Assembly: GCA_039028635.1 (NCBI GenBank)
Contig: JBCCHV010000011.1
Location: 62,001-126,000 of the forward strand
Direction of reading: 5' to 3'
Length of the DNA: 64,000 nucleotides
Origin: Acidobacteriota bacterium
GTDB lineage: Bacteria; Acidobacteriota; Thermoanaerobaculia; Multivoradales; JBCCEF01
The first letter of the stretch is position 1, and each line of letters begins with the position of its first letter. Shown here one piece after another: positions 52,530-62,924 of the stretch. The notes beneath the pieces were generated by a model. That model saw nothing but the letters and a program-made list of their open reading frames with translations, did not search any database and had not been told where the DNA came from. The translations under genes were made by a program, and so were the position numbers.

Positions 52530-52823
52530 ATGCTCGACCAGTTGCAGAAGGATGCCTTTGCGGACCGCGTTGGAACGAAGGTCCATCTGACTCTGCCGGA
52601 CTCCGCCGAGCTCGAGCTGACCATCCACGAGGTCACCGCCCTACCGCAACACGACGGCCAGACCCGACCGCCCTTCTCGGTACTCTTCCGCGGCCCCGAA
52701 GCGCCCGTCCTGGAACAGGCGATCTACTCCCTAGGCCATTCCGACCTCGGCACCATGGAACTCTTCCTGGTCCCCCTCGGCCCGAAAAAGAGTGGGTTCG
52801 AGTACGAGGCCGTCTTTACCTAG
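52530..52823 (+). CDS. DUF6916-like small protein
   Basis: A 97-residue soluble protein, mostly beta: FADRVGTKVHLTLPDSAELE, RPPFSVLFRGPEAPVLEQAI, YSLGHSDLGTMELFLVPLGP, GFEYEAVF. This pattern fits DUF6916, which I recall often near tail-collar proteins; that link is memory, not a search result. AAGGAGGA precedes the ATG. It overlaps the convergent acetyltransferase gene by eight bases. Confidence 0.65.
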   Translation: MLDQLQKDAFADRVGTKVHLTLPDSAELELTIHEVTALPQHDGQTRPPFSVLFRGPEAPVLEQAIYSLGHSDLGTMELFLVPLGPKKSGFEYEAVFT

Positions 52824-53292
52824 GCGACCACTCCATCAGGTAGTACACGCCCTGGTCTTCGAGCTCCTCGAAGCCCAGGCGGTGGTACAGGCTGAGGGCG
52901 GGATTGTTCTTCTCGACGTGGATTCGCACCGGCAGTCCCGCCGCCTGCCCCTCGGCGAGGAGCTCGGCGAGCAGCCGGCTGCCGACACCACCACGACGCT
53001 TCTCCGGCAAGAGGGCGATGTCGATCAGGCGAATCTCGTCCGTCCGACGATCGACATAGAGGCGACCGATGGCCTCACCGTCGACCACCACGAGGTCGTA
53101 GGCGGCGTCGGGGAACTGCTGCTGATAGAAGGTGTGCTGGGCCTCGAACTGCATGCGGACGAACTGCTCCTTTTCCGCGTCGCTCCACGGCACCGCCGCC
53201 AGCTCCTCGGCGCGGGTTCCAGCGTAGACCTGCAGCAGGAAGGGCAGGTCCTCTGAGGTCATGGGGCGTAGCTCGATTTCCGCTGAAGACAT
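52816..53292 (-). CDS. GNAT-family N-acetyltransferase
   Basis: A 158-residue single GNAT domain: IELRPMTSEDLPFLLQVYAG at the start, DIALLPEKRRGGVGSRLLAEL (the acetyl-CoA pyrophosphate loop, motif A), then IHVEKNNPALSLYHRLGFEE (motif B), and a final YYLMEW. The acceptor substrate is unknown. Small GNATs of this kind sit next to tail-collar genes in several genomes (from memory). The ATG at 53292 begins the conserved part, although the frame continues upstream. Confidence 0.82.
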   Translation of the reverse strand: MSSAEIELRPMTSEDLPFLLQVYAGTRAEELAAVPWSDAEKEQFVRMQFEAQHTFYQQQFPDAAYDLVVVDGEAIGRLYVDRRTDEIRLIDIALLPEKRRGGVGSRLLAELLAEGQAAGLPVRIHVEKNNPALSLYHRLGFEELEDQGVYYLMEWSPR

Positions 53293-53512
53293 CCGCTTCC
53301 TCCGCTCGCTGGACGAACTCTGAGCGAGGCCAGTTCTACCACGACGACTGCAGGTCCGGGCGCGGCTCACGCCGCCCCCGGACCCACCGCCCTCAAGACG
53401 CTGAAAACTCTCGACTCACGGCATCCTTCATCCCCGAGGGCCTCCGAGCCCAGCGGGCTGACCGCCCGCGACGAGGCGGAGTCGGCCGCCGTGTCGCTCA
53501 TTTTGCGCCTGC
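53293..53512. other. Intergenic region before repeat element III
   Basis: About 220 bases upstream of the acetyltransferase gene. They should hold its promoter; no clear -35/-10 pair is visible. Open frames here are short and unsupported. Confidence 0.35.
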
Positions 53513-53513
53513 C

Positions 53514-53715
53514 AGCAGGTTGCTGAAAATTCATTGCCAACCGGCTGCCGGGCCCGAGAGGGCCCGGCGGCGGCGAAGCCGCCGCGACGGGAGAGGAGGC
53601 CCAAGAACCGCGCTTCTTGGGCCGGAGCGGGCCGCGCAGTCAGGGGCGCGTAGCCCCTCTCGGAAAACAGCAGGCGCTGAAAAAGTCGCCACGCGACTTT
53701 TTCAGCCGCCTGCTA
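53514..53715 (+). repeat. Mosaic intergenic repeat element, copy III
   Basis: Begins AGCAGGTTGCTGAAAA and ends with the complement TTTTTCAGCCGCCTGCT, whose final bases give the TAG stop of the minus-strand gene at 53713. Internally it has the 47-base core (53577-53623), a GGGGCGCGTAGCCCC hairpin and a long terminal hairpin. It is the most complete and compact copy. The open frame across it (53520-53735) is not a gene. Confidence 0.8.
53669..53714 (-). terminator. Long terminal hairpin of element III, terminator of the collar operon
   Basis: AGCAGG-C-GCTGAAAAAGTCGC pairs with GCGACTTTTTCAGC-CG-CCTGCT around a three-base loop, about 20 pairs. On the minus strand it follows directly after the stop of the 106-residue gene. 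A-tracts and T-tracts lie within the stem. Confidence 0.65.
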
Positions 53716-54033
53716 GCTCCAGGGCTCGACCTTGACCTCGGTCGTGTCGTCGCCATAGCAAACCCGAACCACCTTCGGCACGTGCTCCATCTGGTGCTCG
53801 GTGGTGCCGGAAGCGATGACGTAGGTGCGCTTGCCGTCACCGTAAGGCGGCGCCTCGACCAACAGACGCCACTCATCGAGCTTGTCGGCCTGAGGCACGA
53901 TCATGGCGGTCCAGCCACCGTCCGGAAAACTCATGGTGGCCAGCACGTAGAGCACGCCGTCCCGACCGTCCGAGTGATCGAAGTCCCGCACGAAGGCCCG
54001 ATATCCGATTTGAGAAGGTCCTCGCTCAGCCAT
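53713..54033 (-). CDS. Small protein downstream of the collar triplet
   Basis: A 106-residue soluble protein with no signal peptide. It is predicted mostly beta: YRAFVRDFDHSDGRDGVLYV, ATMSFPDGGWTAMIVPQADK, VEAPPYGDGKRTYVIASGTT. I recognise no family. It is the last of five same-strand genes (giant protein, three collars, this one), 57 bases after the third collar gene, and its stop comes from repeat element III. It may be an accessory to the collar proteins. Confidence 0.55.
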   Translation of the reverse strand: MAERGPSQIGYRAFVRDFDHSDGRDGVLYVLATMSFPDGGWTAMIVPQADKLDEWRLLVEAPPYGDGKRTYVIASGTTEHQMEHVPKVVRVCYGDDTTEVKVEPWS

Positions 54034-54090
54034 TACTCACTCCCTTGAAGTCATGGGTCCAAAGAAAACTCCGAGAAATTTCGCCGGCCA

Positions 54091-54603
54091 TCAGCCACGC
54101 GACGGATACAAGCCGACTAACGCGATGATGAAATTCATCACGATGAATGGCTGCAGATTGTTGTGCGGCTGGCTGCCGCCGGTGTTCGGCAGAGTTGGAT
54201 CAGCCGCCGCCTGCAAATTGGCTGCATTCGCATACATGTCGGTGCCGGCACCGAAATGGTGGTTCTGCGGATTCTGCGAGTTACCGTCTTCACCCGAAGC
54301 GATGAGCTGGTGGGTGTGATTCGGCATCTGCGCCTCGCTGAGGGTCACCATTTCGACGCCGCCTCGCTGTCCGAGCCGGCGCGACGTCAGGCCGGGGCCG
54401 CGGCCAGGGTGCATCGGCACCCGCCCCTTGAGATTGGGCAGCGCCGTGGTGGAGCGACCGTCGCCACCGTAGGTCGTCCCGATGAGCGAGAACAGCGCCG
54501 TGTTCTGAGCAATCGGCAGGAGCTGACCATTGCAGAAGGCCCAACCCCGCGGCGCGAAATTGCCGGCGAAAATGCGAATCTCCGCTGTGAATGGTTCCGA
54601 CAT
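54091..54603 (-). CDS. Tail-collar domain protein (MdpB-like), copy 3
   Basis: A 170-residue protein. Start MSEPFTAEIRIFAGN leads into the Tail_Collar motif FAPRGWAFCNGQLLPIAQ, then ALFSLIGTTYGGDGRSTTAL and LKGRVPMHPGRGPG. The C-terminal 80 residues (MPNHTHQLIASG, then SQPHNNLQPFIVMNFIIALV and GLYPSRG) match the microcystin-dependent-protein branch of phage-collar proteins. No signal peptide or tail-assembly genes are nearby. Ribosome site TAGGAGG. The role of non-phage MdpB proteins is not established. Confidence 0.85.
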   Translation of the reverse strand: MSEPFTAEIRIFAGNFAPRGWAFCNGQLLPIAQNTALFSLIGTTYGGDGRSTTALPNLKGRVPMHPGRGPGLTSRRLGQRGGVEMVTLSEAQMPNHTHQLIASGEDGNSQNPQNHHFGAGTDMYANAANLQAAADPTLPNTGGSQPHNNLQPFIVMNFIIALVGLYPSRG

Positions 54604-54612
54604 GATCGCCTC

Positions 54613-55131
54613 CTAGTGCCTCGACGGATAGATGCCGAACAAGGCGATGATGAAGTTGATGCACAGAAACGGCATCAGATTGGTGTGGCTGCGACTGCCG
54701 CCGACGTTGGTGATCGCTTGCGTGCTCATATTCACTGGATCCGGGTCTTCGGCCCAGGCGTCGATGCCGATGGCCGAGGCGGGAGCCCGACCGGCCGGAT
54801 CCTGGTTGTTGGCAAGGCTGTTGGTGGCTTGCATCGCATGGGTGTGGCTCGGTAGCTGGTTGACCGTCAAGGTGACTTTCTCGGCTCCGGCCTTGGCCCC
54901 CAAGCGGCGCGGCGACAGGCCGGGCCCTGACCCGGCGTGAAGCGGGACTCGCCCCCGCAGGTCCGGCAGGCCGAAGGTGGTACGCCCGTCGCCGCCATAG
55001 ATGGTGCCGAGGAGACTGAACAGGGCATCGTTCTGGGAAACGGCCAGGAGCTGACCATCACAGAAGGCCCAACCCCGCGGCGCGAAATTACCGCCGAACA
55101 TGCGCATCTCTCCCACAAAAGGTTCTGACAT
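54613..55131 (-). CDS. Tail-collar domain protein (MdpB-like), copy 2
   Basis: A 172-residue paralogue of its neighbours: MSEPFVGEMRMFGGN, FAPRGWAFCDGQLLAVSQND, ALFSLLGTIYGGDGRTTFGL, DLRGRVPLHAGSGPG, LPSHTHAMQATNS, then SHTNLMPFLCINFIIALFGI. The variable segment (about residues 105-140) differs from copies 1 and 3, as expected if that part sets specificity. Nine bases separate it from copy 3 and twelve from copy 1, so the three form one transcription unit. Confidence 0.85.
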   Translation of the reverse strand: MSEPFVGEMRMFGGNFAPRGWAFCDGQLLAVSQNDALFSLLGTIYGGDGRTTFGLPDLRGRVPLHAGSGPGLSPRRLGAKAGAEKVTLTVNQLPSHTHAMQATNSLANNQDPAGRAPASAIGIDAWAEDPDPVNMSTQAITNVGGSRSHTNLMPFLCINFIIALFGIYPSRH

Positions 55132-55143
55132 GCTTCGTCTCCT

Positions 55144-55662
55144 CTAGTTGCGGGATGGGAAGAGCCCTTGCAGGGCGATGACGAAGTTCACCGCCAGATA
55201 GGGCTGCATGTTGTCGTGGGCCTGGCCGCCGCCGACGTTGGCAACGGTGCCGGTCGCCATCGCCACCTGGGATCCGAACTCGCCATAGATGGTGGCGCCC
55301 ACGGCTCTCGCCAGCACTCGACCGTTCGGCTGATCGGTCGTGCCGTTGTTGTTGGTGACCTGCAAGACATGGTCGTGCTGAGGCATCTCGGCGCCAGAGA
55401 GGGTGTGGGTCTCCTCACCGCTCTTCTGGCCTTCCCGGTGATCCCCACCGCCATTGCTGCGGCCGACGTGCATCGGCACCCGGCCGCGCATGTCCGGCAG
55501 ACCGAAGGACGTTCGGCCATCGCCACCGTAGGTCGTGCCGAGCAGCGAGTAGAGGCTCTGGTTCTGATTGATCGGCAAGATCTGGCCGTCACAGAACGCC
55601 CACCCCCGCGGCGCGAAGTTGAAGCCCACCATGCGGACCTCCGCCAAAAATGGTTCCGACAT
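55144..55662 (-). CDS. Tail-collar domain protein (MdpB-like), copy 1
   Basis: A 172-residue paralogue: MSEPFLAEVRMVGFN, FAPRGWAFCDGQILPINQNQ, LYSLLGTTYGGDGRTSFGLP, DMRGRVPMHVGRSNGG, MPQHDHVLQVTNNNG, then AHDNMQPYLAVNFVIALQGL. It is the first collar gene, with a strong ribosome site (AAAGGAGG) on the minus strand. The ATG at 55662 is chosen over an in-frame upstream codon because all three copies then start MSEPF. The giant surface-protein gene ends 132 bases upstream, beyond a hairpin. Confidence 0.86.
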   Translation of the reverse strand: MSEPFLAEVRMVGFNFAPRGWAFCDGQILPINQNQSLYSLLGTTYGGDGRTSFGLPDMRGRVPMHVGRSNGGGDHREGQKSGEETHTLSGAEMPQHDHVLQVTNNNGTTDQPNGRVLARAVGATIYGEFGSQVAMATGTVANVGGGQAHDNMQPYLAVNFVIALQGLFPSRN

Positions 55663-55794: not shown

Positions 55795-58700
55795 CTACGG
55801 AGGGGTCGGACAGCCGGCGCCACCGTTGTTGGTGAAGCCATTCCCCACCGGCGAAAGCACATGATTGCTGTTGCGCGGATCGAGGAAGGCCTCGACCGTC
55901 GCATTGTTGTTCGGTCCGGCACCCATGCCCTCGACATGGAAGGTGGCCGCCGCCTCGCGCTCGAGGACGATGCCGGTAGCCGCCGAGTTGGCGTCGGCTC
56001 CGACATTGGCGCCGTTGAGGTCGAGGCAGTAGGTCGAAGATCCCTCGGCCTCGAAGACGAAGTCGCCGGTGCCGCCGGCCCCCTGAATAATGGTGTTGCC
56101 GTGGACGGTGGCGTTGACCGTGCAGTTGTCGTTGTCGGCCTTGATCACCGCCGCTTGATCCGAAGACGTTCCCGTTCCGGTGTTCGTGACGTGGATCTGG
56201 TTGTCCGTGAACAGCACGTTCATGGTCTTCGGATCGGTGTCGTCGGCCTGAATGAAGACGCCGTCGCGGGTGCCCCCCACGTTGCCCGCCGTGGTCCCGA
56301 AGTTGCCGGTGCCGACGCGGTTGTTGGTCACCCGGAAGTGCGACGTCGGCGTGTCCTCGCGCACATCGATGAAGATGCCGATGCCGTTGGTCATGTCGTT
56401 GATGTCGTTGTTGTCGATGGTGACATCGACCACGCCCACCGAGCCGCTCGCCGGCTCGGGCACGATGTTGATCCCGCGACGACGGCCCTGGACGTTCTCG
56501 ATGCGATTGCCCGAGATCGTGCCGGTGATGGTGCCTCCGGCGTTGGCCGCCGCGGCCGCGATGTTGATCACCCCGCCGTTGACGCCCGGGATTCCGACGT
56601 TCTGAATCGTGTTGCCGGAGATGGTGAAGGCCGAGCTCGCGCTGTGCGCCTTGCCGATGTTGATGACGCTCGAGCCGACCGCGGCGCGGGCGTTGCTCAC
56701 GGTGTTGTTGCGGAACACCGAGGTCACCGTGCCGGTGTCGCCCGGATCGAGGCCCGCCGAGTGCTGGAAGGCGTCCGGCACCAGATCCGTGAACAGGCTG
56801 TCTTCGACAGTGACGTTCATCAGCGAGTTGCCGCGTCCCTCGACCAGGAACATCACCTGGCCGGTGACGGCATTGCGGAAGATCGAGTTGCCGGTAGTGA
56901 AGCCGGTGCCGGCGTTCAAATTGACGTTGTCGTTGCGCAGGAAGACGGCGCTGGTGTTGGCGACATCGACGTCCTCCACGGTGATGTGCATCAGCGAGCC
57001 CTGGCCGCTGAGCTGATCCGCCAGAATGCCGTTCCCTCCCGGCGTCAGGATTCGCATGCGCGCCAGGTTGAGCTCGTGGCTGCGATCGACCAGCACCGCC
57101 GTGCCGGTGGTGTTGCGGATGAAGCCGCCGGAGCTGTTGCCGCCCTGGGTGGTGTCGACATTGTCACCGGTCACCGTCACGCCACCGCTGGTGCCGGTGT
57201 TGGTCAGCACGATGCCGCTCGACGCACCGTTGGCCGAGATATCGCGGAAGGTCATGTCCAGGGCACCGATGTTGGTGTTCTCGACCCGCAGTGCCCGGCC
57301 GGTGGTGGTGCTGAGCGAGTGGGCCGTCGTCGGATCGAGCACGTTGACGGTACCGCCGTTGGTCACCACGAAGGCATCGAAGGTGGCGGTGTCGAGGTCG
57401 AGGGCGCCGTTCACCGTCACCACCGCGGCATCGTTGTTGTCGAGCAGGATGCCCTGGCCGGTGTCGGTGATGGCACCGCCCAGGGTCACCGTGCCGGCGC
57501 CGTGGTTGGTCACCTCGACGGAGCGCAACGCCGAGTTGTTGACGTCGCTGTCGATGGTCTTGGTGCCGGAGCCGAAGTCGACATCGATCGCCACGCCGGC
57601 GGCGTTGGCGATGGTGCCGCCACTGGCGACGAAGGAGCCGGTGACTCGCGTCAGGCTGATGCCGGCGCCGTTGCTGTTGGTCGAGCTGACGCTGGCGAAG
57701 GTCATGCCGACGGCGGTCGGGTTGATCACCACCGCCGGACCGCCCGTCGAGGCGATCGAGCTGGTGTTGTCGGTGACGTTGACGGTGCCCGAATCGGTCG
57801 CCACCAAGCCACGCACGCCCGCTCCGTTGGTGTTGACCGCCACCCGGCTGAAGTTGATCGTCGCCGTGCCGTTGGCGTTGAGGAAAACGGCATCCACCGG
57901 CGCCGGTGTGCCGCCGGCGATCACCATGTCCGGGAAGGTCATGTTGCCGGCGCTGTTCTGCACGCTGATGCCGTGGTGGTTGGTGGTCGCGATGGTGGTG
58001 CCGCCGAAGCTGCTGCCGCCATCGACGTCGTCGAAGACGATCACTCGGCCGTTTGAGTGACTGACGGCCATGTTGGTGACGTTGACCGCACCATCCGTGT
58101 TGCTCGCCGAAATGGCTGCGAAGCTGCCGCCGTCGGTGCTCAGGTTGCCGTTGTCCACGGTCACCGTGCCGCCGACCGTATTGGCGACCCGCACGGCGGT
58201 GGTGTCGGCACCGGTGATCGAGCCGCCATAGCTCACCACCGGCGCCGCGCCATCGACCAGGAAGCCGACGCCGGCCGGGTTGGTGATGGTGCCACCGGTG
58301 ATCGTCACCGAGCCACTGACATCGTCCAGACTGACGCCGCTCGCGGCGCTGTTGGTCGAGCTCAGGGAAGCCACCGTCATGGCGGCGGTCATGGGATCGA
58401 GATCGAGGGCGGCGCCACCGGTCGAGGTCAGGCTGGTGCCCGCACCGGTGGTCAGCCGGAAGCCGACGCCGGCGCCGGCGTTCAAGGGCCCGGCAGCGGT
58501 CGCCCGCAGGCCGCTCCCACCGTCGGCCACCACGTCGAGATCAGCGAACGCGAGATCGCCGGTCATATTGGTCAGCACCATTCCAGAGCCGCCAACGCCA
58601 TCACCGCTGGTCCCGACGGCCGTGTTCCCCGCCGTCACCGCATCGCCGGTGAAGTCGCCATCGCCGCCACCGCCCGTGCCGCCGTCGGCATCGAGCACGA

Positions 58701-61700
58701 CGCCGTTCATCACGATGCCGTTACCCGTGGTGTCCTGATGCACCGAGTTGCCGGCGAAGGAGGACACCACCAGGGTGCCGCCGCCGGAGCCATCGATCAC
58801 CACACCGTTGGCACCGCCGGTGATGTCGGCGTTGTTGTCGAACACCACCTCGAGTCCACCGTTGCTGGTGCGCACCTCGGCGGCGTCACCGGTGGCGGTG
58901 AGGGCGTTGCCGACGATCGCGACGCGACTGTCGCTGGCGGTGCTGTTGTGGTTGACGTCGACACCGTCGTCACCGCCATCGCGCACGATGTTGTTGTTGA
59001 TCGTCACCTCGACGCGGTTGCCGCCGGTGGCGGTGACGTCGATGGCGTTGTCGTCACCGTCGACGTTGAGGCCGCGCACGAAGATGCCGGTCAGGTCGCC
59101 GGAGTCGGCCGTCACCTGGACGCCGACGCCGCCGGTGGCGTGATCGATCATCGGGTGGTTACCGGCGCTCGCCGGCACCAGCGAGGTCGGTGCCGGATTG
59201 CCGTTGACGGAAACGTTGGGCTCGCAGCCGTGGTGCTCGCCGTGCAGCAGGACGCCGGAGAAGCTGATCTCGATGCCACCGTCATGGCCGGTCGAGGAGC
59301 CGTCACCGGTGCGCACGCAGATCATGTCGTTGGCGCCGTGAGCGGTCTCCGCCTCGGCGAGGGTGTCGAAGGGATCGCTCGACCGCCCGAGACCACCGGC
59401 GGCGGCATCGTTCTCGACGTACCAGACGCGGCCGACGAAGGTGATGTCCACCGTGCCGGTGACCGCCGTCGAGCCGTCCGTGACGTCGTAGGTGAAGGAG
59501 TCCATTCCGGTCGCCCCGGCAGGCGGCAGGTAAGTGAAGGTGCCGTCCGAGTTGACCGTCACCACGGCGCCCGCCGTGGCGGTGTTGAGGGAGGCGGACA
59601 GCGGCGCCGGGCCGTCGCCGCCATCGCTGTCGTTCGACAGCAGGTTGCCGGCCACGAACACCGAGGGGGTCTGGGTCTGGCTCGTGGCCACCTGCAGCAG
59701 GGTGTTGGAGACCGTGTCGAAGGTCTCGCCCACCACCATCGGGATGTCGTTGACGCCGGTGATGGTGATGGTCACCGTCGCCGTCTCGGAGCAGCTCCCG
59801 GAACCGTCATCGAGGGTGTAGGTGAACTGCTCCTGGGCCATGTCCCCGGGACCGAGCGAGTCGTAGCCGCCGTTGGGATCGAAGCTGAAGGAGCCGTTGG
59901 CATTCACCGTCAGCAAGCCCGAGCCGAGGGCGATCTGGACGCCGACGTTGGCGGCGTTGCCGTTGACCGCCGTCACCGTCAGGGAATCGCCTTCCGGATC
60001 AGAGTCCGCCGTCGTCGGGTTGGCCGCCGTGACGTTGCCGTTCAGCACCGTGTCCTCATCCGTCGACACCGCGTCGTCGACCGCCGTCGGACAGTCGTTG
60101 ACGCCGGTGATGGTCACCGTCACCGTTGCCATCTCGGAGCAGGTCCCCGAGCCGTCATCGATCGTGTAGGTGAAGCTGTCCGTGTCCGTCGCACCGGCGG
60201 CCAGGGTTTCGAAGGCACCGTTGGGGTCGTAGCTGAAGGTGCCATTGGCATTCACCGTCAGCAGCGCACCCGAACCCAGCGTGATCTGCACGCCAACGCT
60301 TGCCGCCATGCCATTGACCGCCGTCACCGTCATCGGATCACCGTCCGGATCCGAATCGGCGGTCGTCGGATTGGCGGCCAGGACATCGCCGTTCAAGACC
60401 GTGTCCTCGTCCGTCGACACGGCATCGTCCACCGCCGTCGGGCAACTGTTGCTGCCATTGATGGTGATGGTCACCGTCGCCGTTTCGCTGCAGGTGCCGG
60501 AGCCGTCGTCGAGGGTGTAGGTGAAGCTGTCCGTGTCCGTATCGCCATCGCCCAGGCTGTCGAAGGCGCCGTTGGGGTCGTAGTCGAAGGTGCCGTTGGC
60601 GTTCACCGTCAGCAGCGCCCCGGAAGTCAGCGTGATCTGGGTGCCGACACTCGCCGCCACACCGTTCACCTCCGTCACCACCAGCGTGTCGCCTTCCGGA
60701 TCGGAATCCGCCGTCGTCGGGTTGGCGGCCGTGACGTCGCCGTTCAGGGTGCCGCTCTCGCCCACCGAGAAGGCATCGTCGACCGCCGTCGGGCAGTCGT
60801 TGACGCCGGTGATGGTCACCGTCACCGTCGCCGTCTCGGAGCAGGTCCCCGAGCCGTCATCGATCGTGTAGGTGAAGCTGTCCGTATCCGTCGCACCCGC
60901 CGCCAGGTCGTCGAAGGCGCCGTTGGGGTCGTAGCTGAAGGTGCCGTTGGCGTTCACCGTCAGCAAGGCGCCAGAACCGAGCGTGATCTGGGTGCCGACG
61001 CTCGCCGCCACACCGTTCACCTCCGTCACCACCAGCGTGTCGCCCTCCGGGTCGGAGTCGGCCGTCGTCGAATTGGCGGCCGTGACATCGCCATTGAGGA
61101 CCGTGTCCTCGTCCGTCGACACCGCGTCGTCCACCGCTGTCGGGCAGTCGTTGACGCCGGTGATGGTCACCGTCACCGTCGCCGTCTCGGAGCAGGTCCC
61201 CGAGCCGTCATCGATCGTGTAGGTGAAGCTGTCCGTGTCCGTCGCACCGGCCGCCAGCGCGTCGAAGGCGCCATTCGGGTCGTAGCTGAAGGTGCCGTTG
61301 GCGTTGACCGTCAGCAGCGCCCCCGAACCCAGCGTGATCTGGGTGCCGACGCTCGCCGCCATGCCGTTGACCTCGATCACCACCAGGGAGTCGCCCTTGG
61401 GATCCGAATCGGGACCATTGCCGTTGTCGACGGTGACGTCGCCGTTCAAGACCGTGTCCTCGTCGGTGGCGACGTCGTCATCGACCGCCGTCGGGCAATC
61501 GTTGACGCCATCGACGGTGATCGTGACATCGGCCGAGTCGGGACAACCCTGGGGATCTTCGATGGTGTAGGCGAAGCCGTCCGTTGCCGCCTCGCCGGGC
61601 GCCAGAGGATCGAAGACGCCGTTCGGATCGTAGTCGAAGGTGCCGTTGGCGTTGACCGTCAGCAAGGCGCCCGAACCCAGCGTAATCTGGGTGCCGACGC

Positions 61701-62661
61701 TCGCCGCCACACCGTCGACGGCGGTCACCGTCAGGCTGTCGCCCTCGGGATCGGAATCGGCGCCGGAGCCGTTGTCGGCCAGCACGTCGCCGGCGAGGGT
61801 CGCCGAGGACACCACCGAGAGGGCGTCGTCTTGGGCTTCGGGACAATCATTGAGCACCGCATCGATGCGGAAGAACACCAGCCCCGGCTGGGCCTCGTCG
61901 GAGGCGCCGAAAAGGGCCACCAGGTCGGCATCGACGGGGGCATCGCCGGTGCCGTCGTTGCCCAGCGGCACCACCGCCGCCCACTCGCTGATGTCGCCAT
62001 CGGGAAGGAACAGCCCCCCACCGGCCCAGACCGAACCGACCGCCGCGGTCAGCAACACCGCCGCCACCACCATCGCCAGCGTCGAGGGATGGCGTCGCAG
62101 CACGTAGAGGGCCATCGCCGCCAGGAAGAAGGCGAGCAGCATCAAGCCCCACTGGGAAACCGTCGGAATCTCGAGCACCGAGACTCCACCGACCTCGAGC
62201 AAGGGGAGATCGAGCAACGCGTCCTCACCGCCGCCGGTGTCCTCGCGGCTGATCACCGCCACCCGTATGAACCGCTGACTCGCCGGCAGTTGGAGGGGCA
62301 AGTAGGTCTCGATCGCATCCGATCCCGCGACGCCGAGACCGACCCCGACATCCCATGGCGGTGCGAAGGGCGCGTCGACCACCATCGCCGGACCGAAGGT
62401 CCCGCTGCCGCTGTCGCAGTCGCGACGCACCACGGAAATCACACTCGGGGTGGTCGAGACGTTCTCTACGGTGGTGATGAGCACGGCCTCGACGCCCTCG
62501 AAGGGGCCGTCCGCCGTCGCCACCGTGCAGCCCGTCGTCGCTTGCGCATCGAGGTCGAGCAAGAGCTCGAGCTCACTCATCGAGGCAACGGCAGGAGCTG
62601 CCAACAGGCAGGCCAGAACAGCGATCACCAACGTCCAACGGTTCGTGGTCGGGCGCATCAT
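55795..62661 (-). CDS. Giant surface protein: IPTL-like segment, cadherin-like repeats and beta-helix
   Basis: A 2288-residue exported protein. Signal peptide 1-27 (ending APAVAS). Residues 28-164 are beta-rich. Residues 165-191 read VLEIPTVSQWGLMLLAFF onwards to an Arg-Arg, an IPTL-CTERM-like sorting signal that is internal here. A second hydrophobic segment (194-214) looks like a signal peptide or helix. Six tandem repeats of 116-117 residues (273-972) follow, each with CPTAVDDxxSTDEDTVLNGD and NGTFSYDPNGAF, of the VCBS/cadherin-like kind, plus a seventh degenerate copy. From about 1078 (WYVENDAAAGGLGRSSDPFD) to the end is a Thr/Asn/Gly-rich right-handed parallel beta-helix. The start ATG at 62661 follows GGGGGAGGAG. 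Confidence 0.88.
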   Translation of the reverse strand: MMRPTTNRWTLVIAVLACLLAAPAVASMSELELLLDLDAQATTGCTVATADGPFEGVEAVLITTVENVSTTPSVISVVRRDCDSGSGTFGPAMVVDAPFAPPWDVGVGLGVAGSDAIETYLPLQLPASQRFIRVAVISREDTGGGEDALLDLPLLEVGGVSVLEIPTVSQWGLMLLAFFLAAMALYVLRRHPSTLAMVVAAVLLTAAVGSVWAGGGLFLPDGDISEWAAVVPLGNDGTGDAPVDADLVALFGASDEAQPGLVFFRIDAVLNDCPEAQDDALSVVSSATLAGDVLADNGSGADSDPEGDSLTVTAVDGVAASVGTQITLGSGALLTVNANGTFDYDPNGVFDPLAPGEAATDGFAYTIEDPQGCPDSADVTITVDGVNDCPTAVDDDVATDEDTVLNGDVTVDNGNGPDSDPKGDSLVVIEVNGMAASVGTQITLGSGALLTVNANGTFSYDPNGAFDALAAGATDTDSFTYTIDDGSGTCSETATVTVTITGVNDCPTAVDDAVSTDEDTVLNGDVTAANSTTADSDPEGDTLVVTEVNGVAASVGTQITLGSGALLTVNANGTFSYDPNGAFDDLAAGATDTDSFTYTIDDGSGTCSETATVTVTITGVNDCPTAVDDAFSVGESGTLNGDVTAANPTTADSDPEGDTLVVTEVNGVAASVGTQITLTSGALLTVNANGTFDYDPNGAFDSLGDGDTDTDSFTYTLDDGSGTCSETATVTITINGSNSCPTAVDDAVSTDEDTVLNGDVLAANPTTADSDPDGDPMTVTAVNGMAASVGVQITLGSGALLTVNANGTFSYDPNGAFETLAAGATDTDSFTYTIDDGSGTCSEMATVTVTITGVNDCPTAVDDAVSTDEDTVLNGNVTAANPTTADSDPEGDSLTVTAVNGNAANVGVQIALGSGLLTVNANGSFSFDPNGGYDSLGPGDMAQEQFTYTLDDGSGSCSETATVTITITGVNDIPMVVGETFDTVSNTLLQVATSQTQTPSVFVAGNLLSNDSDGGDGPAPLSASLNTATAGAVVTVNSDGTFTYLPPAGATGMDSFTYDVTDGSTAVTGTVDITFVGRVWYVENDAAAGGLGRSSDPFDTLAEAETAHGANDMICVRTGDGSSTGHDGGIEISFSGVLLHGEHHGCEPNVSVNGNPAPTSLVPASAGNHPMIDHATGGVGVQVTADSGDLTGIFVRGLNVDGDDNAIDVTATGGNRVEVTINNNIVRDGGDDGVDVNHNSTASDSRVAIVGNALTATGDAAEVRTSNGGLEVVFDNNADITGGANGVVIDGSGGGTLVVSSFAGNSVHQDTTGNGIVMNGVVLDADGGTGGGGDGDFTGDAVTAGNTAVGTSGDGVGGSGMVLTNMTGDLAFADLDVVADGGSGLRATAAGPLNAGAGVGFRLTTGAGTSLTSTGGAALDLDPMTAAMTVASLSSTNSAASGVSLDDVSGSVTITGGTITNPAGVGFLVDGAAPVVSYGGSITGADTTAVRVANTVGGTVTVDNGNLSTDGGSFAAISASNTDGAVNVTNMAVSHSNGRVIVFDDVDGGSSFGGTTIATTNHHGISVQNSAGNMTFPDMVIAGGTPAPVDAVFLNANGTATINFSRVAVNTNGAGVRGLVATDSGTVNVTDNTSSIASTGGPAVVINPTAVGMTFASVSSTNSNGAGISLTRVTGSFVASGGTIANAAGVAIDVDFGSGTKTIDSDVNNSALRSVEVTNHGAGTVTLGGAITDTGQGILLDNNDAAVVTVNGALDLDTATFDAFVVTNGGTVNVLDPTTAHSLSTTTGRALRVENTNIGALDMTFRDISANGASSGIVLTNTGTSGGVTVTGDNVDTTQGGNSSGGFIRNTTGTAVLVDRSHELNLARMRILTPGGNGILADQLSGQGSLMHITVEDVDVANTSAVFLRNDNVNLNAGTGFTTGNSIFRNAVTGQVMFLVEGRGNSLMNVTVEDSLFTDLVPDAFQHSAGLDPGDTGTVTSVFRNNTVSNARAAVGSSVINIGKAHSASSAFTISGNTIQNVGIPGVNGGVINIAAAAANAGGTITGTISGNRIENVQGRRRGINIVPEPASGSVGVVDVTIDNNDINDMTNGIGIFIDVREDTPTSHFRVTNNRVGTGNFGTTAGNVGGTRDGVFIQADDTDPKTMNVLFTDNQIHVTNTGTGTSSDQAAVIKADNDNCTVNATVHGNTIIQGAGGTGDFVFEAEGSSTYCLDLNGANVGADANSAATGIVLEREAAATFHVEGMGAGPNNNATVEAFLDPRNSNHVLSPVGNGFTNNGGAGCPTPP
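59746..61845 (-). repeat. Six tandem ~351-base coding repeats in the giant gene
   Basis: Successive copies begin at the Cys codon of CP(T/E)A and recur every 348-351 bases. Copies 2-6 are highly similar at DNA level, with several 30-60 base stretches that look identical. Copy 4 differs in its first strand (FSVGESGTLNGD). This arrangement favours recombination that changes copy number, and short-read assemblies may misjudge the count. Confidence 0.9.
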
Positions 62662-62924
62662 CAAGACTCCTCCCCCAAGAGGAACGACCGGCAGGACCGG
62701 CTCGTCAATCGATCATTTTTTCAATTCAAGTCGAAGACCCGAATTCAAGGATACCGCCCCGCGGCGGTTCCTCGTCCTATTTGGCCGTGTTTCCATGGCC
62801 GAGAAACGTTTCGTCGTTGAATTCTGCAGCCTTCGAGGGCCAGGACGGGCGCTTCCTGGTAGGATTTGAGGCGTCACCGGGCGGCCTTCGCCGCCTTCCC
62901 ATTCCCCCTCGAGGAGTCTTCCCA
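62662..62924. other. Divergent intergenic region upstream of the giant gene
   Basis: Between the giant gene and the DinB-like gene. The 62700-62750 segment is AT-rich for this window (TGATCGATTGACG on the minus strand) and probably holds the giant gene's promoter. No confident -35/-10 pair can be assigned. Confidence 0.3.

Follow-up and report, generated by a model that had tools for sequence, protein, structure and literature searches.

Proteins with a three-part tail, made up of a motif, a helix and basic residues that a membrane protease is thought to recognise, are known from the PEP-CTERM/exosortase and GlyGly-CTERM/rhombosortase systems (PMC1569441, PMC3237569), where the tails are C-terminal almost without exception. 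In the working model for PEP-CTERM proteins, the protein is retained by the inner membrane until acted on by exosortase (PMC12188702). Haft et al. considered in 2006 that the small number of PEP-CTERM regions whose tails are far longer might not be functional (PMC1569441). IPTL-CTERM/XrtH sorting (TIGR04174/TIGR04177) has the same motif, helix, Arg-Arg and enzyme as the case described here, whereas PEP-CTERM and GlyGly-CTERM proteins have another motif and enzyme, but its signal lies at the C terminus and ours is internal. In Methylomirabilis, the S-layer protein has been described as carrying IPTL-CTERM at its C terminus (PMC8671808). An internal XrtH signal is itself known in outline from the NCBIfam model NF033207, "midcut-by-XrtH", the likeness being judged by the name of the model, which denotes an XrtH-type signal in mid-protein. 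In the literature that could be searched, no paper dealt with midcut proteins or with polyproteins processed by exosortases.

The window, by which we mean the whole 64,000-nucleotide stretch of acidobacterial DNA analysed and to which all positions refer, encodes a giant surface protein with such an internal signal. We think it likely, from its sequence and those of its relatives, that this protein is two secreted proteins in one frame, cut by XrtH and by signal peptidase. What the locus adds to NF033207 is fourfold: relatives hold the pieces as an adjacent IPTL-CTERM gene and a giant gene with a signal peptide; the second hydrophobic segment, which follows the motif, aligns in a sister set of fused proteins with the signal peptide of those split giants and may be recognised as one; three tail-collar genes usually form a cluster with the giant gene at its head, in Wenzhouxiangella too; and, in the subfamily of the window protein, the hairpin formed by the two hydrophobic segments may lie inside one beta-sandwich, natural hairpin-less versions of which exist.

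The gene is an open frame on the minus strand (55795..62664), coding for 2289 residues, and homologues span residues 12-285 in one frame. The listed start is a TTG (residue 1) with an ATG directly after it, the ATGATG standing behind the Shine-Dalgarno (SD)-like GGGGGAGGAG; the true start is likely to be the ATG just inside the listed TTG. All parts of the protein are encoded on the same strand. The N-terminal signal peptide (residues 1-28; 62581..62664), a hydrophobic segment recognised by sequence reading and alignment, is followed by a beta-sandwich part (residues 29-160; 62185..62580) delimited by alignment and an AlphaFold2 model, in which the strands at 29-150 mostly have pLDDT values of 80-93. 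Cys 46 and Cys 83 of this part are invariant in eight aligned sequences, and the domain matched no named family in searches of Pfam and NCBIfam. Next come the internal IPTL-CTERM signal, comprising IPT motif, transmembrane helix 1 (TM1) and Arg-Arg (residues 166-191; 62092..62169), the second hydrophobic segment, TM2 (residues 192-214; 62023..62091), and the start of the giant piece, a DGD..EW segment placed by alignment and models (residues 215-272; 61849..62022), with D222, G223, W228, R266 and D268 invariant in the eight-sequence alignment. Pfam and NCBIfam profiles then match cadherin-like, tandem-95 and Big_9 repeats (about residues 285-1075; 59440..61812), and the C-terminal repeat region (residues 1076-2289; 55798..59439), as its sequence reads, is probably a parallel beta-helix. 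This repeat architecture resembles that of the large tandem-95/cadherin-like surface proteins (NF012211, PF17803, PF17963), which, unlike the window protein, are without a fused second secreted protein in front.

The internal signal is above the thresholds of both profiles that describe it. TIGR04174, for which the curated cut-off is 20.5 bits, matches residues 166-191 with 29.3 bits when the whole protein is scanned, 32.2 with a fragment and 36.8 in the genome scan, and Pfam IPTL-CTERM (PF18203; cut-off 20.8) gives 28.4-31.7 bits. P167, T168, L189, R190 and R191 are invariant in eight aligned sequences. As 2124 residues separate the start of the motif from the stop codon, the signal is not C-terminal. 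The first-pass annotation, which had described the motif, helix and basic stop of an IPTL-CTERM tail at residues 165-191 with more than 2000 residues after it, and directly behind it a second hydrophobic segment ending VGSVWAGGG, was right on both counts. Its premise that such signals are C-terminal is true of the other 15 of the 16 TIGR04174 matches above the curated cut-off in the same genome, which stop 24-32 residues past the start of the motif, but disregards the NCBIfam midcut model that already exists. The window signal is the second best of the 16 and the only internal one, in a genome with more than 20 ordinary C-terminal tails.

That genome also encodes the enzyme, and a search for an exosortase, proposed earlier as a check, found XrtH with 101.8 bits against a cut-off of 86 (G000:C39). 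The protein has NGC, VR and SHT motifs, which we read as containing the Cys, Arg and His that exosortases use in catalysis, and the gene next to it is a weak match, at 21.7 bits and so below the cut-off of 35, to the XrtH-associated membrane protein. NF033207 matches residues 159-249 of the giant protein, covering the motif, both helices and the next segment, with 35.7 bits in the whole protein, 41 in a fragment and 43.2 in the genome scan, that is, 1.8-9 bits under its cut-off of 45; the orthologue in genome G006 lies above it, at 48.3 bits. Across the phylum, with up to 11 candidates scored per genome, at least 2 of 297 genomes have a match to this model at E 1e-9. A candidate split form in the window's own genome (C33:25489), where an NF033207 match contained a TAG, was rejected as an ordinary C-terminal tail with a chance match in the far part.

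With the parts and the enzyme gene observed, we infer two cuts, one by XrtH at the motif and one by signal peptidase I after A214. An earlier suggestion that an exosortase-like enzyme cuts the protein into an N-terminal and a giant piece thus gains an encoded XrtH and an existing NCBIfam model, the cut itself being the conjectural part. The protein would comprise an IPTL-CTERM protein (signal peptide, domain of ~135 residues, IPT motif, transmembrane helix and RR) joined to a giant adhesin-like protein that retains its own signal peptide. Sec would export the N-part until TM1 halted transfer, and TM2 would re-enter the membrane, acting as an internal signal sequence. Cleavage after A214 by signal peptidase I would free the giant part into the periplasm. 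XrtH would cleave at the IPT motif, transferring or releasing the small N-part; by analogy with the working model for PEP-CTERM proteins, that part would stay in the inner membrane up to this point. The outcome would be that of the split-gene relatives, but with a fixed 1:1 ratio.

Giants linked to the tail-collar triplet occur in several forms. Fused forms with an internal IPTL hairpin carry an N-module of type 1 (the window, L076, L077, L080 and L082) or of type 2 (L095, L100, L109, L120 and L121). In the split form, found in L098 (G007), L099 (G029) and L114 (G017), an IPTL-CTERM gene stops right before the giant gene, which carries its own signal peptide; the two genes overlap as ATGA in L098 and L114 and are separated by a gap in L099. 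In hairpin-less forms, comprising L115, L116 and others of family f14, a short linker joins the N-module to the next segment, and in Wenzhouxiangella the hairpin accompanies a degenerate motif. In the latter case, the start of the ORF at 8914-14976 of L089 (Wenzhouxiangella sediminis) has the hairpin with ALAVPVATG in place of the IPTL motif, in a genome with an XrtH of 208.8 bits. Plain giants with one signal peptide are found in L096, L104, L106, L111 and L112, and no IPTL gene was found beside any of these five. XrtH is encoded in all ten genomes with a fused triplet-linked giant, that of W. sediminis included, and in all three with a split pair; the plain form is that of both XrtH-negative genomes in which the giant is complete (L096 and L104).

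The earlier proposal that two secreted genes have fused is supported by the split relatives, albeit through other types of N-module. In L099 and L114, the split N-module shares 47-61% identity with the fused modules of type 2; that of L098 is of a third type. The TM2 of fused giants aligns with the signal peptide of split giants, with matching mature starts (for example 57% over 222 amino acids, L114 against L120). For the N-module type of the window protein, no split form or unfused homologue was found, and the reading of its TM2 as a signal peptide for the giant part is carried over from the type-2 set by shared architecture. In a small tree with moderate supports, the two type-2 split forms fall among the fused ones, and two changes are required; a step between the ATGA overlap and fusion takes a change of frame in addition to loss of a stop. 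Because relatives hold the parts as neighbouring, partly overlapping genes, with a second signal peptide at the place of TM2, the rare internal exosortase signals, which had been suspected of being non-functional (PMC1569441), would have a simple reason: a fused operon for two surface proteins in a fixed ratio. Cutting need not occur in every relative, as the XrtH-encoding Wenzhouxiangella has a degenerate motif and family f14 a linker without hairpin.

An AlphaFold2 model of residues 1-290 of the window protein (thin alignment of 8 sequences; pTM 0.68) has the beta-sandwich at 29-150, two helices and two further strands, and that of the natural hairpin-less L115 (likewise thin, 12 sequences; pTM 0.78) has both halves confident and the linker disordered. 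The DGD..EW segment may thus complete the N-terminal beta-sandwich. Structural alignments, all of them weak, start in the first half and extend across the second: VIA gave galectin-like (jelly roll) matches for the N-part together with the start of the giant part (best Z 4.4, rmsd 4.0, 98 aligned), and a Foldseek search with the model of the N-part returned nothing below E 0.1. VIA matches to the two-helix hairpin (Z up to 6.0) were dismissed as common arrangements. Together, models and alignments suggest that a single domain may enclose the hairpin, in which case the pieces could stay associated after cutting. A fuller version, in which the hairpin interrupts a single beta-sandwich (29-150 plus about 218-270) whose halves stay locked non-covalently after the cuts, the N-half tethering the giant to the surface, is speculative, and we would give it only a modest chance. 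If true, it would amount to a split-domain way of surface anchoring via an XrtH-processed N-half, and the idea of a joined domain makes the fate of exosortase products testable.

The predicted pair of helices (171-191 and 195-215, with a short turn, in the model of the first 290 residues) would also suit an uncut membrane hairpin, with TM1 and TM2 anchoring both domains in the inner membrane and the motif a relic, and Wenzhouxiangella has indeed retained its hairpin though the motif has decayed. We regard this as unlikely for the window protein: all eight aligned sequences have P167 and T168, only one motif scores higher in this genome, which has XrtH and many ordinary tails, and the first protein of the split relatives ends at such a tail.

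Alternatively, XrtH could be the only protease, and an uncleaved TM2 would anchor the giant part in the membrane, as the name of NF033207, which implies XrtH alone, would have it. The bearing of TM2 on this is as follows. The segment has Arg-Arg in front and Ala as its last residue (HPSTLAMVVAAVLLTAAVGSVWA↓GGG), and a signal peptidase site is predicted at its end, after A214 (AAVGSVWA↓GGG). By eye, the alignments fit the pattern of a Sec signal peptide, with a basic n-region, a hydrophobic core and an AxA-like end; the presumed -1 residue is Ala throughout and the -3 residue mostly A or V. In some relatives the -3 residue is I or L, which favours cleavage by XrtH alone, though the V and A of the window protein at -3 and -1 fit signal peptidase. 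The position of the type-2 TM2, at the place of the N-terminal signal peptide of split giants, and the classical AxA↓Q sites in which the TM2 of fused type-2 forms ends make an uncleaved anchor improbable.

The conservation of the joint bears on the two remaining alternatives. In seven relatives from the same taxonomic order (G001, G022, G006, G014, G005, G002 and G020), the domain, motif, TM1, RR, TM2 and next segment align in one open frame; an eighth (G010) ends at the end of its contig and a ninth (G060) was also found. Conservation here means within searchable genomes, the hosts of close relatives being mostly uncultured drafts. Eight of the nine genomes of the homologue set, our own included, encode XrtH, the exception being G014, a draft of 1250 contigs, and midcut protein and XrtH are associated over 59 genomes (Fisher p 0.01, kinship ignored). 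Between G000 and G001, dN/dS is 0.35 for the hairpin, which resembles the 0.38 of the N-domain and so indicates that the hairpin is translated and constrained like its neighbour. The suggestion that a second start near residue 183 or 197 yields a separate giant protein could appeal to the split relatives, which start the giant separately, twice with an ATGA overlap. It is nevertheless very improbable and we have abandoned it, as no SD-like sequence precedes the internal Met residues, these are not conserved in place, every fused relative has one frame across the joint, and the hairpin is under coding constraint. An assembly error or frameshift joining two genes, which had been named as what would undo the fusion, might be suspected from the many draft genomes (tens to more than 1000 contigs), but its probability is negligible and we treat it as refuted because the frame is conserved: several families, with at least 12 genomes between them, have such an in-frame joint, and so does a member of another phylum, where the motif is degenerate.

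We return to two secreted proteins in one frame with the genes that follow them, which hint at what both products do. After the giant gene come three tail-collar genes, a small ORF and a GNAT gene, all of the named ones on the minus strand. The collar proteins, identified by Pfam Collar and synteny, are encoded at 55144..55662 (100.5 bits), 54613..55131 (102.1 bits) and 54091..54603 (98.4 bits), and the acetyltransferase, which often follows the triplet, at 52816..53370 (Pfam Acetyltransf_1, 44.9 bits; synteny in L076, L077, L080 and L089). The ORF between them (53713-54033; 106 amino acids) is 76% identical in L076 and has no match in Pfam or NCBIfam. With collar protein 2 as query, 34 of 99 relatives had matches. 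Most of the collar loci fetched have a giant secreted protein directly upstream, the exceptions being L092, L094 and L105, and several end at contig ends; G002 and G060 have the midcut protein without an adjoining triplet. The cluster is found in the same order in Wenzhouxiangella sediminis (L089), which belongs to another phylum than the host of the window.

Further observations concern the triplet and the ends of the giants. A collar triplet after a giant secreted protein, often with a GNAT gene, recurs throughout Thermoanaerobaculia and in Wenzhouxiangella, being present at 52816-55662 of the window and in L076, L077, L080, L082, L089 and L121; the collar proteins are each about 170 amino acids long, and no signal peptide was seen in them. 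The last 80 residues of the window giant (55795-56040) are nearly identical with the C termini of those in L076 and L077, from different genera, and end in GCPTPP. Similar Cys-Pro tails (SCNLP, ACPLP and CPTPP) end many other triplet-linked giants and may be a secretion or assembly signal. A midcut protein unrelated to this family also occurs: a 1152-residue frame in L084 (G081:C32) has the motif at residue 791 and a downstream part that opens with CxxCH, as in a multihaem cytochrome, so that adhesin-like giants are not the only proteins in which an IPTL tail is fused to a signal peptide. A further midcut protein, in L085 (G024:C192), has the motif at residue 995 of 1183 and a short, low-complexity-looking downstream part.
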